From Amoebophrya sp. AT5.2 (Eukaryota > Sar > Dinophyceae > Syndiniales > Amoebophryaceae), in NCBI GenBank assembly GCA_005223375.1, contig RXOD01005575.1, positions 1-13,383 on the forward strand: a DNA stretch of 13,383 nt, read 5' to 3'. The position numbers and the translations under genes were made by a program. This document shows positions 1,221 to 13,383 of this stretch, piece by piece. Position 1 is the stretch's first letter. Every line of letters starts with the position of its first letter. The notes beneath the pieces are model-generated. The model was not told the origin of the DNA, did no database searches, and was given only the letters and a program-made list of their open reading frames with translations.

Positions 1221-4200
1221 TCAGTAATTGTGAGAGTCGACTGGTGTGGGTGCCGCGAATAGCTGTTGGTGAACCCTTTGCACGGCTACGACGGTCGGTT
1301 GGTTACTCACCCATCTCGCCGGCGGCGCGAAGTTCAGCCCCACGGAGGGCACCTGCAGCACGGGTGGCTGGGCCTGCAGAAACGATCCCAGTTTCGGCTG
1401 CGGGAGGTTCTTGCTCGTTGAAAACAGACCGCTGGTGTATACTGATGGAAGTGCCTGCTGCTGGAGCATCGTCGTGGTGGAAGAGGATGACATCACAGGT
1501 GCCTGGACATTCACATTCTCGTGCGTTGCGCGGCCTACTTCTACTCCGGCAGCGTCGAGTAGATCATCTCCTGCTCCAACCGCCGCAACGTCACCACCCA
1601 CTTGCTCCCCCGCAACGGAAGCTGTTGCGGCCATGAATTGCTGCTCTGATTGTAGTTCTTGTACGACCGGCGTCAAGTCAACATATGCTTGCTCGTCTGC
1701 TCCCACCTCAACGGCCGTGGGCTTGGCAAGCAGTATACTGCCAGCAGTAGTTGCAGCTGCGAGTTGTGCAACATTCGCATTGGTCGTTTCTACTTCTTCT
1801 TCCGCGGGCACACTGCTGTGATGCTCGAGGGCATCTTCTTCGTCCTCGTCGAGCTCCTCGGGAAGATCGTCGACTTTCTTCATGTCCAACGTCGGGACTA
1901 CCTTGACAGCCTTCGCGTGGAAGTTCAACGAAGCGCTACCATTTCTGCGCACCACTCTACTGTTTGGGGAGGCCGTGGTGGGCTTCTCCTGTGGCGTCCC
2001 GGGAACAACCTGGTACTGCGGGGTCTGCTCGCGAGTTATCGTGACACCTGCAGCCTGAAGAGCGCTGTTCTCCTGCTCTCGATGATTTTCCACCCCACTG
2101 CTCAACATCTGGTCGCCCAGCACTCTCACTGGCCAAGTGATTTCCGATCCCGATGTTGGAGGTTTATTATTCTCATCTTCCTCGATGGACGTTCTTCTTC
2201 TTCCGTCCTCCAGCTTTTTTATCTGCTGATCTTCATCTGCATTAGTTGCGGGAACCTCGGCCACCGGGGCCGGGCACTGAAACCGGGACAGGGGGCTGCT
2301 TCTGTCCCCCTTTTCCGACAGCTCCGTGGCGGAGCGCCCAGCGGTGTCCGGGTCTAGCGGCTCCTGTGGGACCATGGGCTCGTCGAGGTAAACTGGCAGC
2401 ACGCCGCCTGAACCTGAAGCGGAAGAAGGTCTGAACCAGGAACCAGGAACTCCATTTTTCCCACCTGCCTTACGTCCCTGCTTCCGGAGCTTGTAGCGCT
2501 GCCCCCGTTGGTGGAGGTTCGCAGGAGCAGTTGCTCCCTTACGCCCACCAGCGCCATTTCGCTGCCCTTTGCTGTCCGCGGCACCGGCACGAGCACCGCC
2601 GCCGCGGATACTACTGCCCTTGCTGTTGCTTTTGCTCCCGTTTTTGGACAATGCCGCTGCAGGAGCAGAAGTCTTCACCTTCGCAGCTGATGCGGTCGTC
2701 GGTGCAGCAGCAGTTGTAGTTGGACCTCCCCTGCCGCGCGTCCGCTTGTTCCTCCGATCGAAGCGGGGTAGATTGAGCTGAGCAGAATCGACCGCAGGTG
2801 TCGTTCCACTTGTTTCGTCTCCAACGTGCTCGACCACGTTATGATCGTTGCTCGTCTTGCTTTCTTGGCGGTCATCGGGGTCCTCACCGCCGAGGAGGCC
2901 GCGGAGGTCCGGCGTGGCTTTTACGCGGTGTTCCGGCATGTCAAACAAACGCGAGCCCACCCGCATGTATTTCTGCATTTTCCAGCGCTTAAATTTGTCC
3001 ACACGCTCCGATGTCTCCTGCGAGGCCTCCCCGAGCCGTTGAGGAGAAATCGATGCCCCTTGCTGAGAATCTTCTTCCTTCTCCTTGTTCAACTGCTCCT
3101 TGCGCGTTCCTGCAACGCGGCCGCGGCGCCCGCCCCTTCGAGGCTGGTGGGAACCTCCAGGTCGTGAAGACGATTTCAACAAAGGCTGCTCGCTTTGTTC
3201 GTGCTCGTCCACAAAATTCAAATTGTCAAGATCGCCAGTTAGCTTTGCGGTTTTTGATTTTGTTTTGCCACCGTTCTTACCCTCCGAGCTCTCGTCTGCC
3301 CTGGAAGATGCGAAGCTAACGATCACGCCCGGCATGAGTGCTGCCGCCTGGGCGAAGAACCTGCCTTGCGTCATCCCGAGGTACGGTGCCTGCAGGGCTC
3401 CGGCTTGCAACGGGACACGGTTGCGCGCGAGCTGTGCCGCCGACGGACTCTTCGAGAGCCCAAGCTTTTCCCCACGGGCCCCCGGCACCGGCGTGCTGGA
3501 TCGTGCGCGTCTGTCCAGCTCGACAACTTCCATTTCGGCACCTTCGCGGCCGCCCACAGCAGATGATGAAGTTGCACCAGCTCCCGCGGGCTCCACGTCG
3601 ACGCAGGGGTAGACATTCGCCCACTTTGGGACGTACCTGAGCCACTTCTCCGGGTGGGCCATCAACGGGTGGTGCATGCCGGTTACTTCGACCTCAGCAT
3701 CTTTTTCCGAGTGCGGCGCAGAGTGATGCGGACGATGCCGCCTCTTGTGGTGCTGGTGCTGGTGTTGAGTACTAGAGTGAGAGTGAGCGTGGTGGCGGAG
3801 GTGCGAACTCTCAGCAGAGATATCTTCTTCTCCTTCTTCAGCGCGGCTAGCACCCGGAGAAGTTTTCGAGAGATGAAGCGGCGCATGAAGATCTCCTCCG
3901 ACCTGATCTACTCCTTGGCTTCCCCAAGTGAGCTGGGCGACTCCGAGGCCGTTTGCTGACAGGTGCTCCCTGACGGCCGGCGACAGAGACGTCGCGCTGC
4001 GGCAGCCAGCGGCAGGAGCCCCAACAGTACTGGCGCTCGCTCCGGCAAACACCGAGCCCGCACTGTGGCCGCACTTGGGAATATTCTGAAGCGCTCTTTG
4101 CTTTACCGATTGCAGCCGCTGCAGCATGCCTTCTTCATTCACGAGGTGCACGCTTGGACTTGCGTGCCCTGCAGCGTGAAGATGTTGGGAAGCGGAAACC

Positions 4201-6352
4201 TCCGCTGACGAGGAACCAGCTTCCACCAGAAGTGGACCGCCCTGCGCCCGCAGGTGCGCCTCGCGCTCCAAAAACTGGTCGAGCGCGGAGGCGGCCTCCC
4301 ACGGCCCCCCGTGCGGATAAATCTTGGCCGCGGGGAGCGGCACCATCGGCTTCCACGCTGGGAGTGCTGGAGCCGGCGCCGGTTCTTGCTGGTCCTCTTC
4401 ACCCGCGGCCCCGGTTGTGCCATCCTGCTCTTCGTTGGCTTTATGCACGTGGTCGATGCTGTTGTCGAGCTCGGGCCCTCCGTCCTCGTTTGCATCCCCA
4501 CCACGCTTTCTTCCACCAGGAGAGAGCCCCCCCCTGATTGTGGTCGGCGGGCGCGGGGTGATCTTCACGTACTGGTTGGCCCTGGTCCTCTCCACCAATT
4601 CTCGGCTGCGCGGCGTCAAAAAGCCTCCCTCCTCTAGCTCCGACGTGCGGTACCTGCCCTTCGGAATGTGCTCCGAAAATGAAGAGTTTGCGTTGTACGA
4701 CCCCAATTGCTGCTCAACCATGAGATCCATTTCCAGCGTCGCCGACCTACCGAACGCGGCTGAACGCTGTCGCCCGAGTCGCTGCGAGGCCATTCGTTGC
4801 GCGTGCCTCTCCTGCGAGCGAGCGCGCCGCTCTGCCGCCGCAGCCCTCTCCTCAGGCGTTATTTTCCACACACCGCGGGGGCCGGGGCCGCCCGTGCTGG
4901 AGGTTCCTTTTTTCCCTCCTTCCTTCGGCTGCGGCGCCAGAATCATCGACTCTGCAACGTCTTGCACCAAAGGTTGGTGTCCAGCTTCCGTTTCCTCGGC
5001 ACCATCATGTGCTGGGAAGAGAGAGCCGGACGGCACGACCACGGGCATCATAAGGGGAACGGTCGTCAGAGGCCGCTCCTTTTTTGTTTTCTCCGCTTTG
5101 ATCTGGAAGCTCGCATTCACAAAATCCACGAAGTTGTCGAAGGTCCGAAATCCCTCCACCGGCTCGATCAAATTCATCGGCTTGTTACCACCTGTTCCGC
5201 CAGCTCCGCCAATCATGTAGTGCGCCGTGCTCGTGAGAAAGGCTTCCAGGTCCTCGTGGTCTACTTGTTCACCAGAATTCGCCGCAGCGGTGGGCTCTTT
5301 AATACCTTTCTCCTCCTCCTTCAGCTTCGTCATCAGGCGGCGCAGGGACCTCGTCGGCGTTCGCCGCAGAAATTTCCGACCCCGCTCTTCCAGCAGCTGC
5401 TTCTCGCGCTGCTTGGCGCGCTGCCGGGCCACGTAACGCTCATACGCGGAATGGTTGCGCGCCGCGGCACCCCGCGGCGTCGCGCTCGCGGCCCCGTGCT
5501 TAATTTGGCTACTATTCCTGTGGGACTTAACGTTGCTCGAGCGTGCTGGCGGCTCCTGGGTGATGGTTGTGCCATCTCCATCTGCATCTTCTTGTTCTTC
5601 ATCTTGCAGAAGATCCTCTCGACGTCCACGCCCGTCTTGTGCGGAAGTTCGTCCCTGCTGGTTGTCGTCCTGGTCGTCAGCTACAGGTCCAGCTTCTGTT
5701 TCATCCCCCGGGGCAGCAGGCGCCGCGGTGACGTCTGATTGCGCATTCTCCATCTGTTCCTCCTTCTCCACAACAGCCGTGGACCGGTAAAAGTCCAGGT
5801 CGTCGTCGGCACCACCAGCTCCCAGTCCGAGTATTGCTTCCGCGTCCTCGCGCGCCGGCTGATCTTCCACGGGCAGCTCATGCTGCACTTCTTCCAGCTG
5901 CTTTGCCCGGTTATCGTCGAGCGTTCTCCGGGCCTCCACTGGCGAGAGCGTCATGCCCACCGCGATGAGCCGCGGCGGCGGAAGCAGCTCCTTCGGCGGG
6001 GGTGAGGGGGTAAAGTCATGGGCGGTCTGCTCGCCGCGCAGAGACGCTTTCGGGGAGAGCGTTTTTCTGAGGTCGAGCTTTTCGATCATGACCGGGGGTA
6101 GCAGCGAAAGCAAACCCACGTCGGCCTGCAGCAGCTTGTTCGGTGAAACACCTCCGCGTGCTCCTTCGCTCCGCGGGCTCATTTGAGGGCGGACGATCTC
6201 GAGGACGTTGCTCGCTTTGCTCGTCGTGCCTGAAAATAAAAGCAAGGGTACGATGGATGGCCATCACGATCGATCATCGGATGAACATGAAGACCAAGAC
6301 GATCTAGATCTTCGTATTTTCTACTCGTCGTAGTACAACTGCTCCTATCCAT
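1221..6352 (-). CDS. Giant low-complexity protein of unknown function (about 1,678 aa)
   Basis: A single frame stays open for about 5 kb (6229..1221), too long to be chance. Upstream of it sits a clear acceptor, cttttattttcag, ending at 6230. I infer a 28-nt first exon (6352..6325) encoding MDRSSCTTT plus a split Ser, joined across a 95-nt intron in phase 1. The fallback start is the ATG at 6182. I recognise no known domain. Most of the protein is disordered Ala/Gly/Ser/Pro/Glu. In frame numbering (residue 1 at 6245) there are basic helical stretches at 262-318 and 462-490 and acidic runs at 190-223 and 1461-1472. A His-rich patch covers 815-845. Aromatic islands lie at 355-385, 857-882, 944-978 and 1082-1118; these are the likeliest places for conserved binding motifs. 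Several SP/TP sites (for example at 23, 64, 79-81, 101) suggest phosphorylation. A cytoskeletal or scaffold role is possible but only a guess. Confidence 0.85.
3711..3803 (-). repeat. Histidine-rich coding patch
   Basis: Within the long exon this segment encodes a run with about 14 His in 31 residues, mixed with Ser, Gln, Arg and Lys (motifs HLRHHAHSH, HQHQHHKRRHRPHH). It reflects CAC/CAT/CAG-like codon runs. It could bind metal or act as a pH-sensitive linker; no catalytic motif is seen. Confidence 0.8.
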
Positions 6353-7894: not shown

Positions 7895-10780
7895 CTATTT
7901 CTCCTTGGTCGCTTTGTCCTCGGCTTCGAGCGCTTCTTCCTCTTCTTCCAACAGGTTGCGGATCTTGACGCCCCCCGGCATCATGTTCCCAGCGCCCGTA
8001 CCTCCGTTCTTGCTGGAAGACATCGTGGCTTCTTCTTGCCGCTCTTCTTGTTCATCTTCCAGTTTGGTTGTTGCTCCTCCAGTTGTTGCCTCGGTGTACA
8101 ACACGTCTATACCGTGCAGCGCGTCCGACACGACGTCCACAGCCACCGGGACGGGGCAGCTCGTCTCGCGCACGGGCAGCAAGTTCTTTTCCGCGATGCG
8201 CTCCAGCTCCGGTTTGGTCAGCTCGTACGCAAAATTCTGCCCCTTCTTCTCGAAACCGAGCAGGAGCAGAAGCTCACTGGTCGCCTTCTTGTTCCCCAGC
8301 CGCTCCTTAAACCGGGTGGAAGCGGTGTTCACCTGATTTTTTGTATTTTACCTTATGTCGTCGTGTGGAAGATGAGGGCGGGTTCGTTTTCTTCTTGTGT
8401 CTCGTTTGTTCTGTAAATATCGTCCTCACGACATTCATCATCACTTTCAGTTTCACATTCATCAAGCAAGTAAAGCTACCTTCCTGTATTTGTCTTGCCC
8501 TGGGTGCTTGCGCAGATTTTCAATGACCAAGTAGAGCATGTTCAGCGTCTTCGACGCGTCATTCTTGTTCTCGCACTCTCGTACCAATTGGAGAAGGAGT
8601 GCGTGCACGCGCGCCTTCCAAGCGTCGATCTCTTCTTCCGGAAGGTCCACGATTCCCTTGTACTTACCGGCCTTGTTACCGGAGGTCGCGCCATCTTCTA
8701 CTGCAGCCCCTCCAACCGAGGCAGCGCTTCCACTACCACTTGCAGGAGCTGCGCTAGAGCTACTACTACTCCCCTTGTGTGGTGGCTTGTCGCTTGCGGC
8801 CGCGTCTCCACCTGACGGGGCCGATTCCGTTTGCTTCTCGCGCCGCGTGCTGGAGGCCGCCGCAGCATCCTGACTGGCGAAGGGCTGCGACGAACTACTC
8901 GTGAAGAAAGCGCTCGGAGTCTGCGGAATTTCGCGTCGGGGATGAGGTACTCAAGTCGTTTTTTTTCGGAATCAATCCATGATACACACTTCAAAACAAA
9001 CAGAGGCACGACAACGACACGACCAAGTTGTACGTAGTTGTACCGCGTCGCTTTCTCCGCTACCTCGCAGGCTCACGGCAGCCGAGTTTGTCGTTTGGGT
9101 TTGGCTCGCGAGTTTTGCGGCCACCACTTCAGCAATTTTCTCCAGATCGTCGGGGTCCAGTTTCGCCGACACGCTAGATGGGCCTTCTGACGTACTAGCA
9201 GTTCCTGCGTTAGAGTTCGTATTGGCCGCTGTGGTTAGGTCCGTCGTTTTCTCCATGAGCTGGCTCAGGCTCTGCATCAACTCTCCGTTCCTCTTCGCAA
9301 TTTCGTCCTGCAGGCTGAGGTTGGTCTCCCGCAACTCCTCGACCGCGGATCGAAGGTGCCCGATCTCCGCCGCCTGCTGTTGCAGCTTGAGTGCGGTATG
9401 GGAAGAACCACCGCCAGCGCCATCGTCGCCCTGGTTCAACTCGTCGTGCGTCGGCGCTGATCATGTCCAGATCGATTCAACACAGCTGCGACAAATCATA
9501 ATCATGGAAGCCGCGAAACTACTGCAAGATAGAACGCAAGCGTCGAATTTCAAACAAAATTACCAAGCCCTAATGACACGCCCGTGCGCTCCTGAATCCA
9601 AGCTTCGTTGTTCTGCAGCCACCGATATGCCAACGCGCCGATGCTCACCGCGCCGGACACTTGCAAAAATGTACGCAGAATGCTGGACTCTGTCGAAAAA
9701 CAATTCGTATTCCTTCGTAAATCGTAAAAATAGGAGCAAGTAGCGCACTATTTGATTTGGTTGTTGCTGCTCCTGCTTCACTGGACAAAAGTTGTACAAG
9801 CAGGAACTGCACAAGCTGCACGAGGACGAGCCTTTGCCTACTATTTGTTCGTGTTTCTTTGAAACCGATTGTAGACATAGCTTTTACCTCCATCCCCCCC
9901 TTCTTGCAGGTAGCTCGGCGGTGGATAGACGAACTTTGGCATCGTCCCTTCCCCCTGCGCTGCCCCTGCAGCGCCTCCACTAATACTGCTGCTTCCTCCT
10001 CCCGCGCCAGTACTGGAGGAAGATGCTGCGGCCCAGGAGCCGCCCATCCCCGCCGCGGCCCTGGTTAGCGCCTCCGTCACCTCCTCCTCCGTGAGGCCTT
10101 TTTGGAGCAAAAAGGTCCGCTTCTGGTTCTCCGAGGCGGTCTTGCGCACCGTCTCATGGTTCAGGAACGACAAGGCCTGCTTGATCATCTCCTCGCGGAT
10201 GGGGAGGGGCGCCTGCGGATTCTGGGCCTTCGCCTGCGCGTACGGATTGCTCGCGCCGTCCGGCTGCCCCCCGACGCTGGGAACGCCCCTGTGTTGAGAA
10301 ATAAAAGAAAAACTACGAGTCTAAACTCAACCAACGCGGCAAACGCTCATCTCTAGCTCTACGACCCTCCTCCACTACCTACTTTTATCAGTACCCTCCG
10401 AAGTTTCCGTACGGGTTTCCACCTCCATATCCACCGTACATGTTCGCCGCGGAAGTAGTGTTTGTGTTTGCAGGAGGTGCCAACGGGGCAGCAGCAGGTG
10501 GTGCGCTTGTTTGCTGTACGGAGGGGGCCACACTTGCACTTGGAGTTCCTGTAGGCGCTGGCTGAGCGGCGGTCGTCGCCGGTGGAGCAGCTCCAGCTCC
10601 AACTGATACGGGTTCCTGCGGTGCGCTTGTGCTGTGCGACGTCGAAGATGCTGCAGATGACGGCGGGACGCCGGCACCGGTCTGTGGGAGGTAGTTGGCA
10701 AACGCGTTAGATGGAGATGACCCGGGGACTGCCGCAGTTGGATCTCCCTTTTGCTTGCTCTCGTCCTCCTCCCCAGCCAT
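7895..10780 (-). CDS. PEX14: PEX14-like peroxisomal docking protein with C-terminal PUB domain
   Basis: Exons: 10780..10395, 10288..9888, 9689..9564, 9456..9044, 8920..8480, 8332..7895. All introns are GT-AG (106, 198, 107, 123 and 147 nt), the phases agree at every join, and the coding length is 2,205 nt (734 aa plus stop). Residues 1-158 are low complexity, ending in a Gly/Tyr/Asn run. Residues 159-207 match the PEX14 N-terminal domain (IREEMIKQALSFLNHETVR, then KGLTEEEVTEAL), which in the family binds PEX5 WxxxF motifs and PEX19. Residues 266-284 are hydrophobic, as expected at the family's membrane segment, preceded by PPPSY. A coiled coil lies at about 327-380. Residues 541-645 match the PUB fold (DASKTL, HPGQDKYRK, ELLLLLGFEKK). 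PUB domains in NGLY1/PNGase, UBXN6 and HOIP bind the p97/Cdc48 tail. The acidic tail has no clear PTS1. Human PEX14 has 377 residues, so this protein is about twice as long. The role is docking of cargo receptors at the peroxisome membrane; p97 recruitment is inferred. Confidence 0.88.
8165..8626 (-). other. PUB-domain coding segment (split by intron 5)
   Basis: Exon 5 ends and exon 6 begins inside the domain (…DKYRK | VNTASTRFKERLGN…), in phase 0 on both sides. Typical PUB features are present: an Asp-Ala-Ser-Lys helix start, Asn-Leu-x-x-x-Pro before Lys-Tyr-Arg, then Phe-x-x-(basic)-Leu and a Leu-rich helix ending in Gly-Phe. The flanking exon 5 frame has no ATG before the one inside the domain (NMLYLV), so the domain needs upstream exons to be translated. 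Confidence 0.88.
10054..10200 (-). other. PEX14 N-terminal domain coding segment
   Basis: Encodes residues 159-207, lying wholly in exon 2. The order Arg-Glu-Glu-x-Ile, then a helix with Ala-x-x-Phe-Leu, then Val-Arg, then a basic stretch, Phe-Leu, and Lys-Gly-Leu-Thr-Glu-Glu-Glu is the recognised three-helix signature of PEX14 proteins. It sits about 150 residues further from the N-terminus than is usual for the family. Confidence 0.92.
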
Positions 10781-11416: not shown

Positions 11417-13383
11417 TTACGGATAACTGCCTCCGGTGTCAGACGCAAACGCTCCAAGGCGGCGGTCGGTACGGGCGGTGGTACCAGCGCCAGGTGGCGG
11501 CTCGGCCCCCGGCTCTCCTGGCTCGTCGGGGTCTCCTGCACCGATGGCTTCTTCTACCATCAATTCGTTGCCCTCCTCGGCGATGTCGTCCAACGAGAGC
11601 GCTGACCCCATCATCCCCGTACTGCCCGCTTCTCCCGTCGCACCTGCGCCCCCGCTTCCCGTTCCCGTTCCGCTTCCGGTTCCACTCACAGGATTAACAC
11701 TAGTACCACGAGGACCTGCTTTAGAAGCCCGACCCTTGTCGGCGGACGTCGCAAACGCACCCGCCGGCACGGGAGGCCCTTTTCGGCCCGGAAGTTCGGG
11801 CTCTTGTTCTCGGGTACTGGGTCGAGGAATGGAAGTTCGCTCTAGGAGTAGGATCTCTTGCAGCTCGAGCTGGCCGTTTGCGTTTAGTACGTTGTTTAGG
11901 ACGGCGCCGTCGTGTTCTGCCATAATTGTCCTCGGCTTTCCTGTGACTGCTGCACGTAATGCTGTGCCGTAGGGCTGCTCCTTCCCGGTCTTGTCGCTCT
12001 TGGAAGTCGTCGCCGTGGGTACCCGGCCAGCACCAGCTCCCGATTGCGGGAAGAACCAGCTCGGCTTCAATCCTTTACGCGGAACAGGAGGATGAGAACC
12101 GCCTTTGAAGCTGCTGTTGGTGCTGTTTCTCGCGCCCTTAATTCTACCCGACCCTTTTGGAGGCAGTGGAGGACCTTTACCGCGAATCGTCTCGACGTTG
12201 TCTTCGCCCCACAGCAGGTTCGTCCGTCGCGGCGCGCCCGCTTCGCCCTCCGCCTGTCGGGAGCCGGGAATCGGCGGACCCTTGAAAAACCCTTTCATCG
12301 TGGTCCCGGAGGGGGCTGCGCCCTTCGACTTTGATGGTGGAGTCGCGGCGGGAGCTGCAACCACGGGAGCAGTCGGCGAGATAACATCTTCAGGAACCGC
12401 GTTGAGAACAAAGTTCTCATGAATTGCCGCGGCGACAAGAGCGGCGTCGTCCTGGGCTTCGCGATCAGAAATGTCATCTTTGTCTTTATTGTTCGGCAAA
12501 ACTGTAGTTTCTTCCATCGGAGCTTCGCCGGTCGCGGCGAGCTCCTCGGGCACCCTGGCATATCCCGCAGCGGCTTGTTCCGGCTTCCCAGACGCTTTAG
12601 CTTTCCCAGCCGGAACCACGGGCGGAGCCGAGGCACTTCCTTTTGCCGTCTTGTTCGGTGCAGGCGGTACCGCGGGCACATCCTCACTTTCCGCTACGGC
12701 AGCAGGAAGAACAGGTGGCGATTTCCCTTTTGCCGGCAGAGCTGCGGGCGGCGCACCCTTGCTACTGCTTGGAACCGTCGCCGCGGTCTTTCCGGTGCCT
12801 GGAGCTGTCGGTGCAGTCTTGCCGCTGTTGGGAATCGTAGGCGCAGTCTTCCCGCCTGGAGCTACAGGCGGAGGTGCAGCACCCTTGCCAGCACCGGGAG
12901 CGGCAGGTGCCGCTTTGCCGGCCGCGCTCGGAATAACCACAGACGGTGACACTTTGCCACCAGGAGCAGTTGGAGCGCCTTTTGCGCTACGAACCGTTTC
13001 CGCTCCGGCTCCGCTGGGTACCGTCGCTATGGGATCTCCACCCGTGCTGCTCGGTATTCCTGGTGGCGCCGGCGCTCCCTTCCCTTTAGCACTCGATGAA
13101 ACTGCCGGAGCTGGGGCGGTCGTGGTCACCTTGCCCTTTGGAGTCGCTGCGGGAGGACCTCCTTTTCCAGCGCTCGGGCCAGGGTGAGGAGGTGGACCTC
13201 CCTTCGGTCCACTCTTCGCGCTCGCGGCCGTGACGAGTGTCGTCGCCGGGGCATCGTCAACATACTCAGCGTCTCCACCGACGTCTGCAGTAATAAAGCC
13301 ATAGTCCGCACCCGCAGCCGTGGGCACATTGCCTTTTCCACCCGCTATAGGTGGCGAGCTGGCCGCTTTCCCGCCGGCGGGGG
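11417..13383 (-). CDS. Pro/Ala/Gly/Lys-rich repeat protein, N-terminus outside window
   Basis: Product unknown. The frame is open from the window edge to a TAA at 11417, giving at least 654 residues with no start reached; the nearest GTG codon is not a credible start. Numbering from that GTG (13327), residues about 35-250 are degenerate repeats of small residues around Gly-Lys and Pro (for example GKTAPTIPNS), so this part is intrinsically disordered and basic. The C-terminal half is less repetitive. It has KGPP[ILV]P motifs at 349, 384 and 516, a related HPPVP at 412, and a segment at about 452-500 with more hydrophobic residues (TALRAAVTGKPRTIMAEHD, then ELQEILLLE) that could fold. A Ser/Thr/Gly linker at 547-570 precedes an acidic helix-like piece (SLDDIAEEGNELMVEEAIGAG). 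The proline motifs could bind SH3, WW or EVH1 domains; this is inference. It lies 636 bp upstream of the PEX14-PUB gene with no evident functional link. Confidence 0.8.
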   Translation of the reverse strand, partial: PAGGKAASSPPIAGGKGNVPTAAGADYGFITADVGGDAEYVDDAPATTLVTAASAKSGPKGGPPPHPGPSAGKGGPPAATPKGKVTTTAPAPAVSSSAKGKGAPAPPGIPSSTGGDPIATVPSGAGAETVRSAKGAPTAPGGKVSPSVVIPSAAGKAAPAAPGAGKGAAPPPVAPGGKTAPTIPNSGKTAPTAPGTGKTAATVPSSSKGAPPAALPAKGKSPPVLPAAVAESEDVPAVPPAPNKTAKGSASAPPVVPAGKAKASGKPEQAAAGYARVPEELAATGEAPMEETTVLPNNKDKDDISDREAQDDAALVAAAIHENFVLNAVPEDVISPTAPVVAAPAATPPSKSKGAAPSGTTMKGFFKGPPIPGSRQAEGEAGAPRRTNLLWGEDNVETIRGKGPPLPPKGSGRIKGARNSTNSSFKGGSHPPVPRKGLKPSWFFPQSGAGAGRVPTATTSKSDKTGKEQPYGTALRAAVTGKPRTIMAEHDGAVLNNVLNANGQLELQEILLLERTSIPRPSTREQEPELPGRKGPPVPAGAFATSADKGRASKAGPRGTSVNPVSGTGSGTGTGSGGAGATGEAGSTGMMGSALSLDDIAEEGNELMVEEAIGAGDPDEPGEPGAEPPPGAGTTARTDRRLGAFASDTGGSYP
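12764..12853 (-). repeat. Three tandem 30-bp coding repeats
   Basis: Three adjoining 30-bp units encode GKTAPTIPNS, GKTAPTAPGT and GKTAATVPSS. On the plus strand each carries the core GCAGTCTT or a close variant (for example GTCGGTGCAGTCTTGCCG). The same pattern continues less regularly on both sides, across about 12728-13000, indicating repeat expansion followed by drift. Confidence 0.8.

Follow-up and report, generated by a model that had tools for sequence, protein, structure and literature searches.

Protein import into peroxisomes has been compared with ERAD, and PEX1/PEX6, the motor that resets the import pore, resembles p97. PEX14 is described as a widely conserved core component of the pore for import into peroxisomes, with Pex14_N as the only Pfam domain given for it; the human protein is placed with its N-terminus inside and its C-terminus in the cytosol, and the C-terminal domain of the yeast protein is reported as disordered (PMC8172628). 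PUB domains such as those of UBXD1 and PNGase bind the p97 tail in a pocket summarized as YxxN(x)9Y plus K/RxxN. According to the same account, mutation of any residue of the YxxN(x)9Y motif strongly impairs binding, loss of R55 in PNGase abolishes binding of the tail, and the SPATA2 PUB, in which the first Tyr is Val, binds no known p97-type motif (PMC6995525). For the HOIP PUB, the Asn of the second motif has been called the cornerstone (PMC4017264), and in Leishmania the DDLYS tail of VCP is the binding site of LiPUB1 as predicted by modelling and docking (PMC7403338). At another organelle, PUX10 is reported to recruit Cdc48 to the chloroplast import site via its UBX domain (PMC11410653).

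A protein from the dinoflagellate parasite Amoebophrya sp. AT5.2, here called PEX14–PUB, brings these two known domains together in a new combination. The sequence-only reading of the locus knew of no described PEX14 with a PUB domain, and a search of the openly licensed literature likewise found no description of one. A PEX14 with a PUB can be regarded as a natural experiment linking peroxisomal import with ERAD-type extraction by p97, and it offers a concrete protein with which to ask what ATPase acts at the import pore.

Gene structure and domain organization

The window analysed is the whole of contig C1779 (13,383 nucleotides), and the assembly searched comprises 50.7 Mb in 2759 contigs. 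The PEX14–PUB gene lies on the minus strand (10780-7895) and consists of six exons separated by five GT-AG introns, as follows.

10395..10780, minus strand: exon 1, carrying the start codon and encoding the low-complexity N-terminus; donor GTACTGATAA
9888..10288, minus strand: exon 2, holding the Pex14_N domain; acceptor CAACACAG, donor GTAAAAGCTA
9564..9689, minus strand: exon 3, hydrophobic segment
9077..9456, minus strand: exon 4, long helix and linker
8480..8920, minus strand: exon 5, linker and N-terminal half of the PUB
7895..8332, minus strand: exon 6, second half of the PUB, C-terminal tail and stop TAG; acceptor AAAATCAG

Splicing of these exons reproduces the structure read earlier from the letters alone and gives a coding sequence of 2172 nt, divisible by three, which encodes 723 aa followed by a TAG stop. 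Agreement of phases alone is weak evidence for the gene model, because 864 GT/AG combinations stay open within the ranges set around the five introns, 432 of them ending at 7895 and 432 at 8307. In the alignment with the related protein of Amoebophrya sp. A120 (see below), the exon 5-6 join, inside the PUB, is gapless and the exon 3-4 join nearly so, and the exon 1-2, 2-3 and 4-5 joins fall in or beside gapped, variable stretches; the exact position of the exon 4/5 join, which falls in a weakly conserved linker, could shift by as many as about 11-20 residues. The frame of exon 5 (8950-8462) has a single ATG, at 8539, which corresponds to residue 559 within the PUB, and exons 5-6 could therefore not encode a whole PUB from an ATG in their own frame. 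The gene and the two-domain anatomy described for it are confirmed, because the Pfam matches lie above their curated cut-offs and the A120 protein shows the same order of the two domains.

The features found in the 723-aa protein are the following.

10060..10197, minus strand: Pex14_N, aa 160-205; Pfam PF04695, 40.8 bits against a cut-off of 23.2, E 1.7e-10
9628..9684, minus strand: hydrophobic segment, aa 265-283; the top 19-residue hydropathy of the protein, with a modest mean Kyte-Doolittle value of 1.32
9209..9406, minus strand: long helix, aa 322-387; AlphaFold2, with pLDDT 78-88 in the block of residues 331-380
8480..8563, minus strand: first part of the PUB, aa 551-578; Pfam PF09409
8207..8332, minus strand: second part of the PUB, aa 579-620; Pfam PF09409

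The profile search that had been proposed earlier as a check places Pex14_N and PUB in one protein, both above the curated Pfam cut-offs, the whole PUB (aa 551-620) scoring 43.8 bits against a cut-off of 34.3 (PF09409, E 2.5e-11). A genome-wide profile search matches Pex14_N exactly at 10060..10197 with 45.9 bits, and 12 PEX14 N-domains are found among PDB sequences (5aon, 2w84 and others) at E 0.0013-0.056. When the PUB is compared with PDB sequences by phmmer, it matches the PUB of PNGase (2hpl, E 4.6e-4) and UBXD1 (UBX domain-containing protein 6; 6sap, E 7.5e-4), and hhalign aligns it with other PUBs at 96% probability over 55 gapless columns. Weak Pfam matches to GLE1 and DivIC in the spliced protein both stay under their cut-offs.

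In that a Pex14_N (PF04695) above its cut-off is followed by a modestly hydrophobic segment and a long predicted helix, the protein is like PEX14, from which it differs in its PUB in the C-terminal part and in a long low-complexity region before Pex14_N. The hydrophobic segment claimed by the sequence-only reading is found, although its hydropathy is modest, and on its composition it is probably a membrane anchor; of the coiled coil claimed along with it, the model shows no more than a single long helix (aa 322-387), which probably forms a coiled coil if the model is right. The mean pLDDT of the AlphaFold2 model of the whole protein is only 44.9. A model of the PUB segment, made from an alignment of two sequences only, has a mean pLDDT of 71.6, and a Foldseek search with this two-sequence model gave no PUB chain among the best 50 matches listed.

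Two stretches of exon 6 that have no Pfam match are common to the A120 protein, namely CPV..AVDVVS..LH.ID at aa 637-662, after the PUB, and an acidic C-terminal motif GG..IR.LL.EEE at aa 698-712. The former may be an additional PUB helix and the latter a short binding motif.

Conservation in a second Amoebophrya

The protein search, which covered about 5.8 billion sequences, returned a single protein, P0001 of Amoebophrya sp. A120, which has 675 aa, is unnamed in public databases and is 52% identical to PEX14–PUB. It carries Pex14_N (44.0 bits) and PUB (43.3 bits) in the same order, as judged by Pfam. Orthologues between Amoebophrya strains are reported to have an average identity of 48.2-51.2%, and the genes of A120 to have been predicted by a transcriptome-based in-house pipeline (PMC7789003). 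Identities to P0001 by region, with gapped positions excluded, are listed from the N- to the C-terminus.

N-terminal low-complexity region: 47/117
Pex14_N: 41/51
Linker after Pex14_N, before the hydrophobic region: 9/23
Hydrophobic region, aa 246-305: 46/59
Coiled coil: 28/62
Short linker: 6/18
Helix 406-425: 10/15
Linker before the PUB: 25/84 (30%)
PUB, Pfam span: 60/70 (86%); 75/98 over aa 523-620
Region after the PUB: 22/45
C-terminus: 20/53

The best conserved region is the Pfam span of the PUB. At the level of residue identity, the comparison shows the PUB to be under constraint as strong as that on Pex14_N, and the predicted A120 protein shows the PEX14–PUB fusion to be present in a second species; most likely, to go by these two proteins, the PUB was in place before the two Amoebophrya lineages split. 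Since the search scored only those candidates that share most exact 5-residue words (7985, 7995 and 419 scored), distant PEX14–PUB proteins, for example in other dinoflagellates, may be missed, and no claim is made that the fusion is confined to Amoebophrya.

The PUB pocket

The five pocket positions of the PEX14 PUB are V563, N566, Y576, N580 and S583, with the same letters in A120. Two of the five pocket residues are kept (N41 and Y51), and Tyr38, Arg55 and Asn58 are replaced in both species by Val, Asn and Ser. The core reads VxxN(x)9Y at 563/566/576 instead of YxxN(x)9Y, and the carboxylate clamp reads NxxS at 580/583 instead of K/RxxN, both as in A120; this register is supported by the 55-column gapless profile alignment noted above. 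The PEX14 PUB is like the PUBs of PNGase and UBXD1/UBXN6 (PF09409) in its profile match, in the two residues kept and in the gapless register, and unlike them in the three replacements and in being fused to a Pex14_N protein. In having Val for the first pocket Tyr and a noncanonical pocket it can be likened, by description only, to the PUB of SPATA2 (PMC6995525), which, unlike PEX14–PUB, is an adaptor to CYLD and not a peroxin.

A six-frame profile search of the genome, in which the PUB of the window itself does not appear because intron 5 splits it, gave seven other PUB loci, four of them above the Pfam cut-off, which served as an internal control. The Tyr38 column holds Leu or Met in all six of those that cover it, and the Arg55 column holds Lys or Arg in four of the seven, Asn in two (L004, L006) and Gln in one (L005). 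The Asn58 column, on the other hand, holds Asn in six of the seven (L002-L006 and L008, the last with small loop insertions in the alignment) and Gly in L007. Because the other PUBs of the genome also lack Tyr38 and some of them lack Arg55, the replacement of Asn58 by Ser is the more conspicuous change. As read from these alignments, the pocket of the PEX14 PUB is atypical yet fixed in both species.

In the same assembly, a 619-aa frame on contig C1643 (1605-3461, plus strand) combines a WLM domain (119 bits) with a PUB (39 bits) and is presumably Wss1-like. A 405-aa frame on contig C931 (2960-4174, plus strand) has a PUB (51.5 bits) after an OTU-like stretch that scores 19.2 bits against a cut-off of 23.3, and on this arrangement it is possibly a deubiquitinase with a PUB.

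Candidate ATPase ligands

The D2 end of Cdc48 is encoded on contig C311 (809-1641, plus strand); against the PDB, the top match of this exon is 9ox9, labelled vesicle-fusing ATPase (E 9.5e-77), and most later ones are p97/Cdc48. The last exon, which we infer about 190 bases beyond the D2 exon, ends ...FTAAAADEDDDLYS-stop (DEDDDLYS), and by its residues this DDLYS end is a p97-type tail. With the match beginning only at base 103, contig C311 does not carry the N-terminal half of Cdc48, nor was this half identified on another contig.

PEX1 is represented by an open frame of 1727 codons on contig C2191 (280-5463, plus strand) with long acidic low-complexity insertions, a PEX-1N domain and the C-terminus ...SAQIGKRVALA. 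Its identity rests on the PEX-1N domain, because its D2 region scores best against p97-type chains of the PDB, the PEX1 chain 8u0v_A being last among the matches listed. The ATPase on contig C2105, with the C-terminus ...YEALAQEYRNA, is called PEX6-like in our own judgement of its sequence; p97 chains are its top PDB matches, and PEX6 (8u0v_F) comes last among the best 60 listed. A D-L-Y-x tail is absent from the ends of both the PEX1 and the PEX6-like open frames, and among the three ATPases only Cdc48 appears to have a tail of the kind expected of a PUB ligand.

Proposed function and alternative explanations

The PEX14–PUB gene holds the only Pex14_N match that the profile search found in the 50.7 Mb assembly, so that no PUB-less PEX14 is seen that could do the normal job. 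The explanation that we tentatively prefer, with somewhat less than even confidence, is that the one PEX14 found in this assembly had a PUB added to its C-terminal arm and acts as a membrane-anchored adaptor whose likeliest ligand is Cdc48/p97, bound via DDLYS. In such a model, the N-domain would lie inside and the C-terminal arm would be cytosolic, as in human PEX14, which would hold the PUB on the docking complex, facing the cytosol. The protein would thereby tether a factor of the ubiquitin pathway, most likely Cdc48/p97 with its DDLYS tail in the atypical pocket, and the bound Cdc48 could work alongside PEX1/PEX6 in extracting or discarding receptors or cargo that have become stuck. The identity of the ligand is the least certain step of the mechanism proposed. 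The sequence-only reading had suggested that the fusion would place p97 at the import pore, a suggestion that is favored by the p97-type DDLYS tail in the genome but weakened by a pocket that lacks three of the five residues binding the p97 tail in UBXD1 and PNGase; binding of p97 is for these reasons only partly supported. The broader proposition, that in Amoebophrya-type parasites Cdc48 is bound at the import pore beside, or instead of part of, PEX1/PEX6, and that import is there joined to an ERAD-type motor, is to be regarded as doubtful.

PUX10 offers a precedent by analogy, suggesting that anchoring Cdc48 at the import site of an organelle is workable in principle. The likeness lies in how the two would work, each as a membrane protein by which an adaptor domain for Cdc48 is held where an organelle imports proteins. 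PUX10 differs in having a UBX in place of a PUB and in being a recruiter of its own, separate from the import machinery. To our knowledge, PUX10 and PEX14–PUB share no domain.

The alternative that survives best, and which carries almost the same weight, is that the PUB has been re-purposed and that its altered pocket binds another partner, such as a deubiquitinase, a ubiquitin-like domain or a peroxin. Precedents exist in the SPATA2 PUB, which binds CYLD and shows the same change of the first Tyr to Val, and in the HOIP PUB, which binds an internal motif in OTULIN. The changes of R55 to Asn and N58 to Ser alter the carboxylate clamp, mutation of R55 to Ala in PNGase reportedly let an internal motif bind weakly (PMC4017264), and the altered pocket has been kept, with all five positions identical in both species. 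However, no candidate partner was identified, the Leu or Met at Tyr38 in all six covering loci and the Asn at Arg55 in two of seven make these changes not special to the PEX14 PUB, and Ser could still hydrogen-bond the C-terminal carboxylate. Binding of Cdc48 through the atypical pocket is given a slight edge over a re-purposed pocket, a narrow margin on which the data are not decisive.

That the PUB is a structural passenger without a ligand, as the altered pocket might be taken to mean, is improbable: a drifting passenger would not be expected to be the best conserved stretch of the protein (60/70), with 86% identity over 70 residues as against 30% in the linker that precedes it.

Marginally less probable again is a direct tether of PEX1/PEX6, in which the PUB would replace an anchor of the PEX26/PEX15 type. 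PEX14–PUB would resemble those anchors in bringing an AAA ATPase to the peroxisome membrane. The assembly does contain PEX1 and a PEX6-like ATPase, and a search of it for Pex26, run with no positive control, gave no match. PEX26 and PEX15 differ in binding the N-terminal side of PEX6, as reported for the known anchor PEX26 (PMC5447069), and PEX14–PUB itself has no Pex26 Pfam match. Binding of the PEX1/PEX6 tails by the PUB was rejected since the tails on both frames lack the p97-type motif, which makes unlikely the earlier suggestion that an AAA relative such as PEX1/PEX6 is the ligand.

Hardly credible, finally, is an artefact in which neighbouring PEX14 and PUB-protein genes were wrongly joined, which could appeal to the 864 open splice combinations and to exon 4 reading on, unspliced, to a stop at 8972, but which was rejected given the same fusion in A120, whose genes come from transcriptome-based prediction (PMC7789003), and given that exon 5 has no ATG in frame before the PUB.

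Other peroxins and neighbouring frames

In an earlier account, the presence of peroxisomes in Amoebophrya was inferred partly from six peroxins (PEX1, 5, 7, 11, 12 and 16), PEX14 not being among those listed there (PMC7789003). In the present assembly, two Pex2_Pex12 matches lie over the cut-off, and together with PEX1 they are, on profile evidence, other parts of the peroxisome machinery. PEX13, PEX26 and PEX19 gave no match, which is not to be read as absence, as no control genome gave a match, introns break up the genes and the assembly is perhaps incomplete. The CDC48_2 profile had no match in the assembly either, although the D2 end of Cdc48 is present; negatives from these profile searches can mislead, because they missed both Cdc48 and the intron-split PUB of the window.

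Within the window, the PEX14–PUB gene is flanked by two open frames on the same strand, one of 1680 aa (1221-6263, minus strand) and one of 654 aa (11417-13381, minus strand) that runs off the contig end, neither with a Pfam match at E <= 0.1. Blocks of co-oriented genes have been reported for Amoebophrya, and the common orientation of the three would be consistent with such a block.
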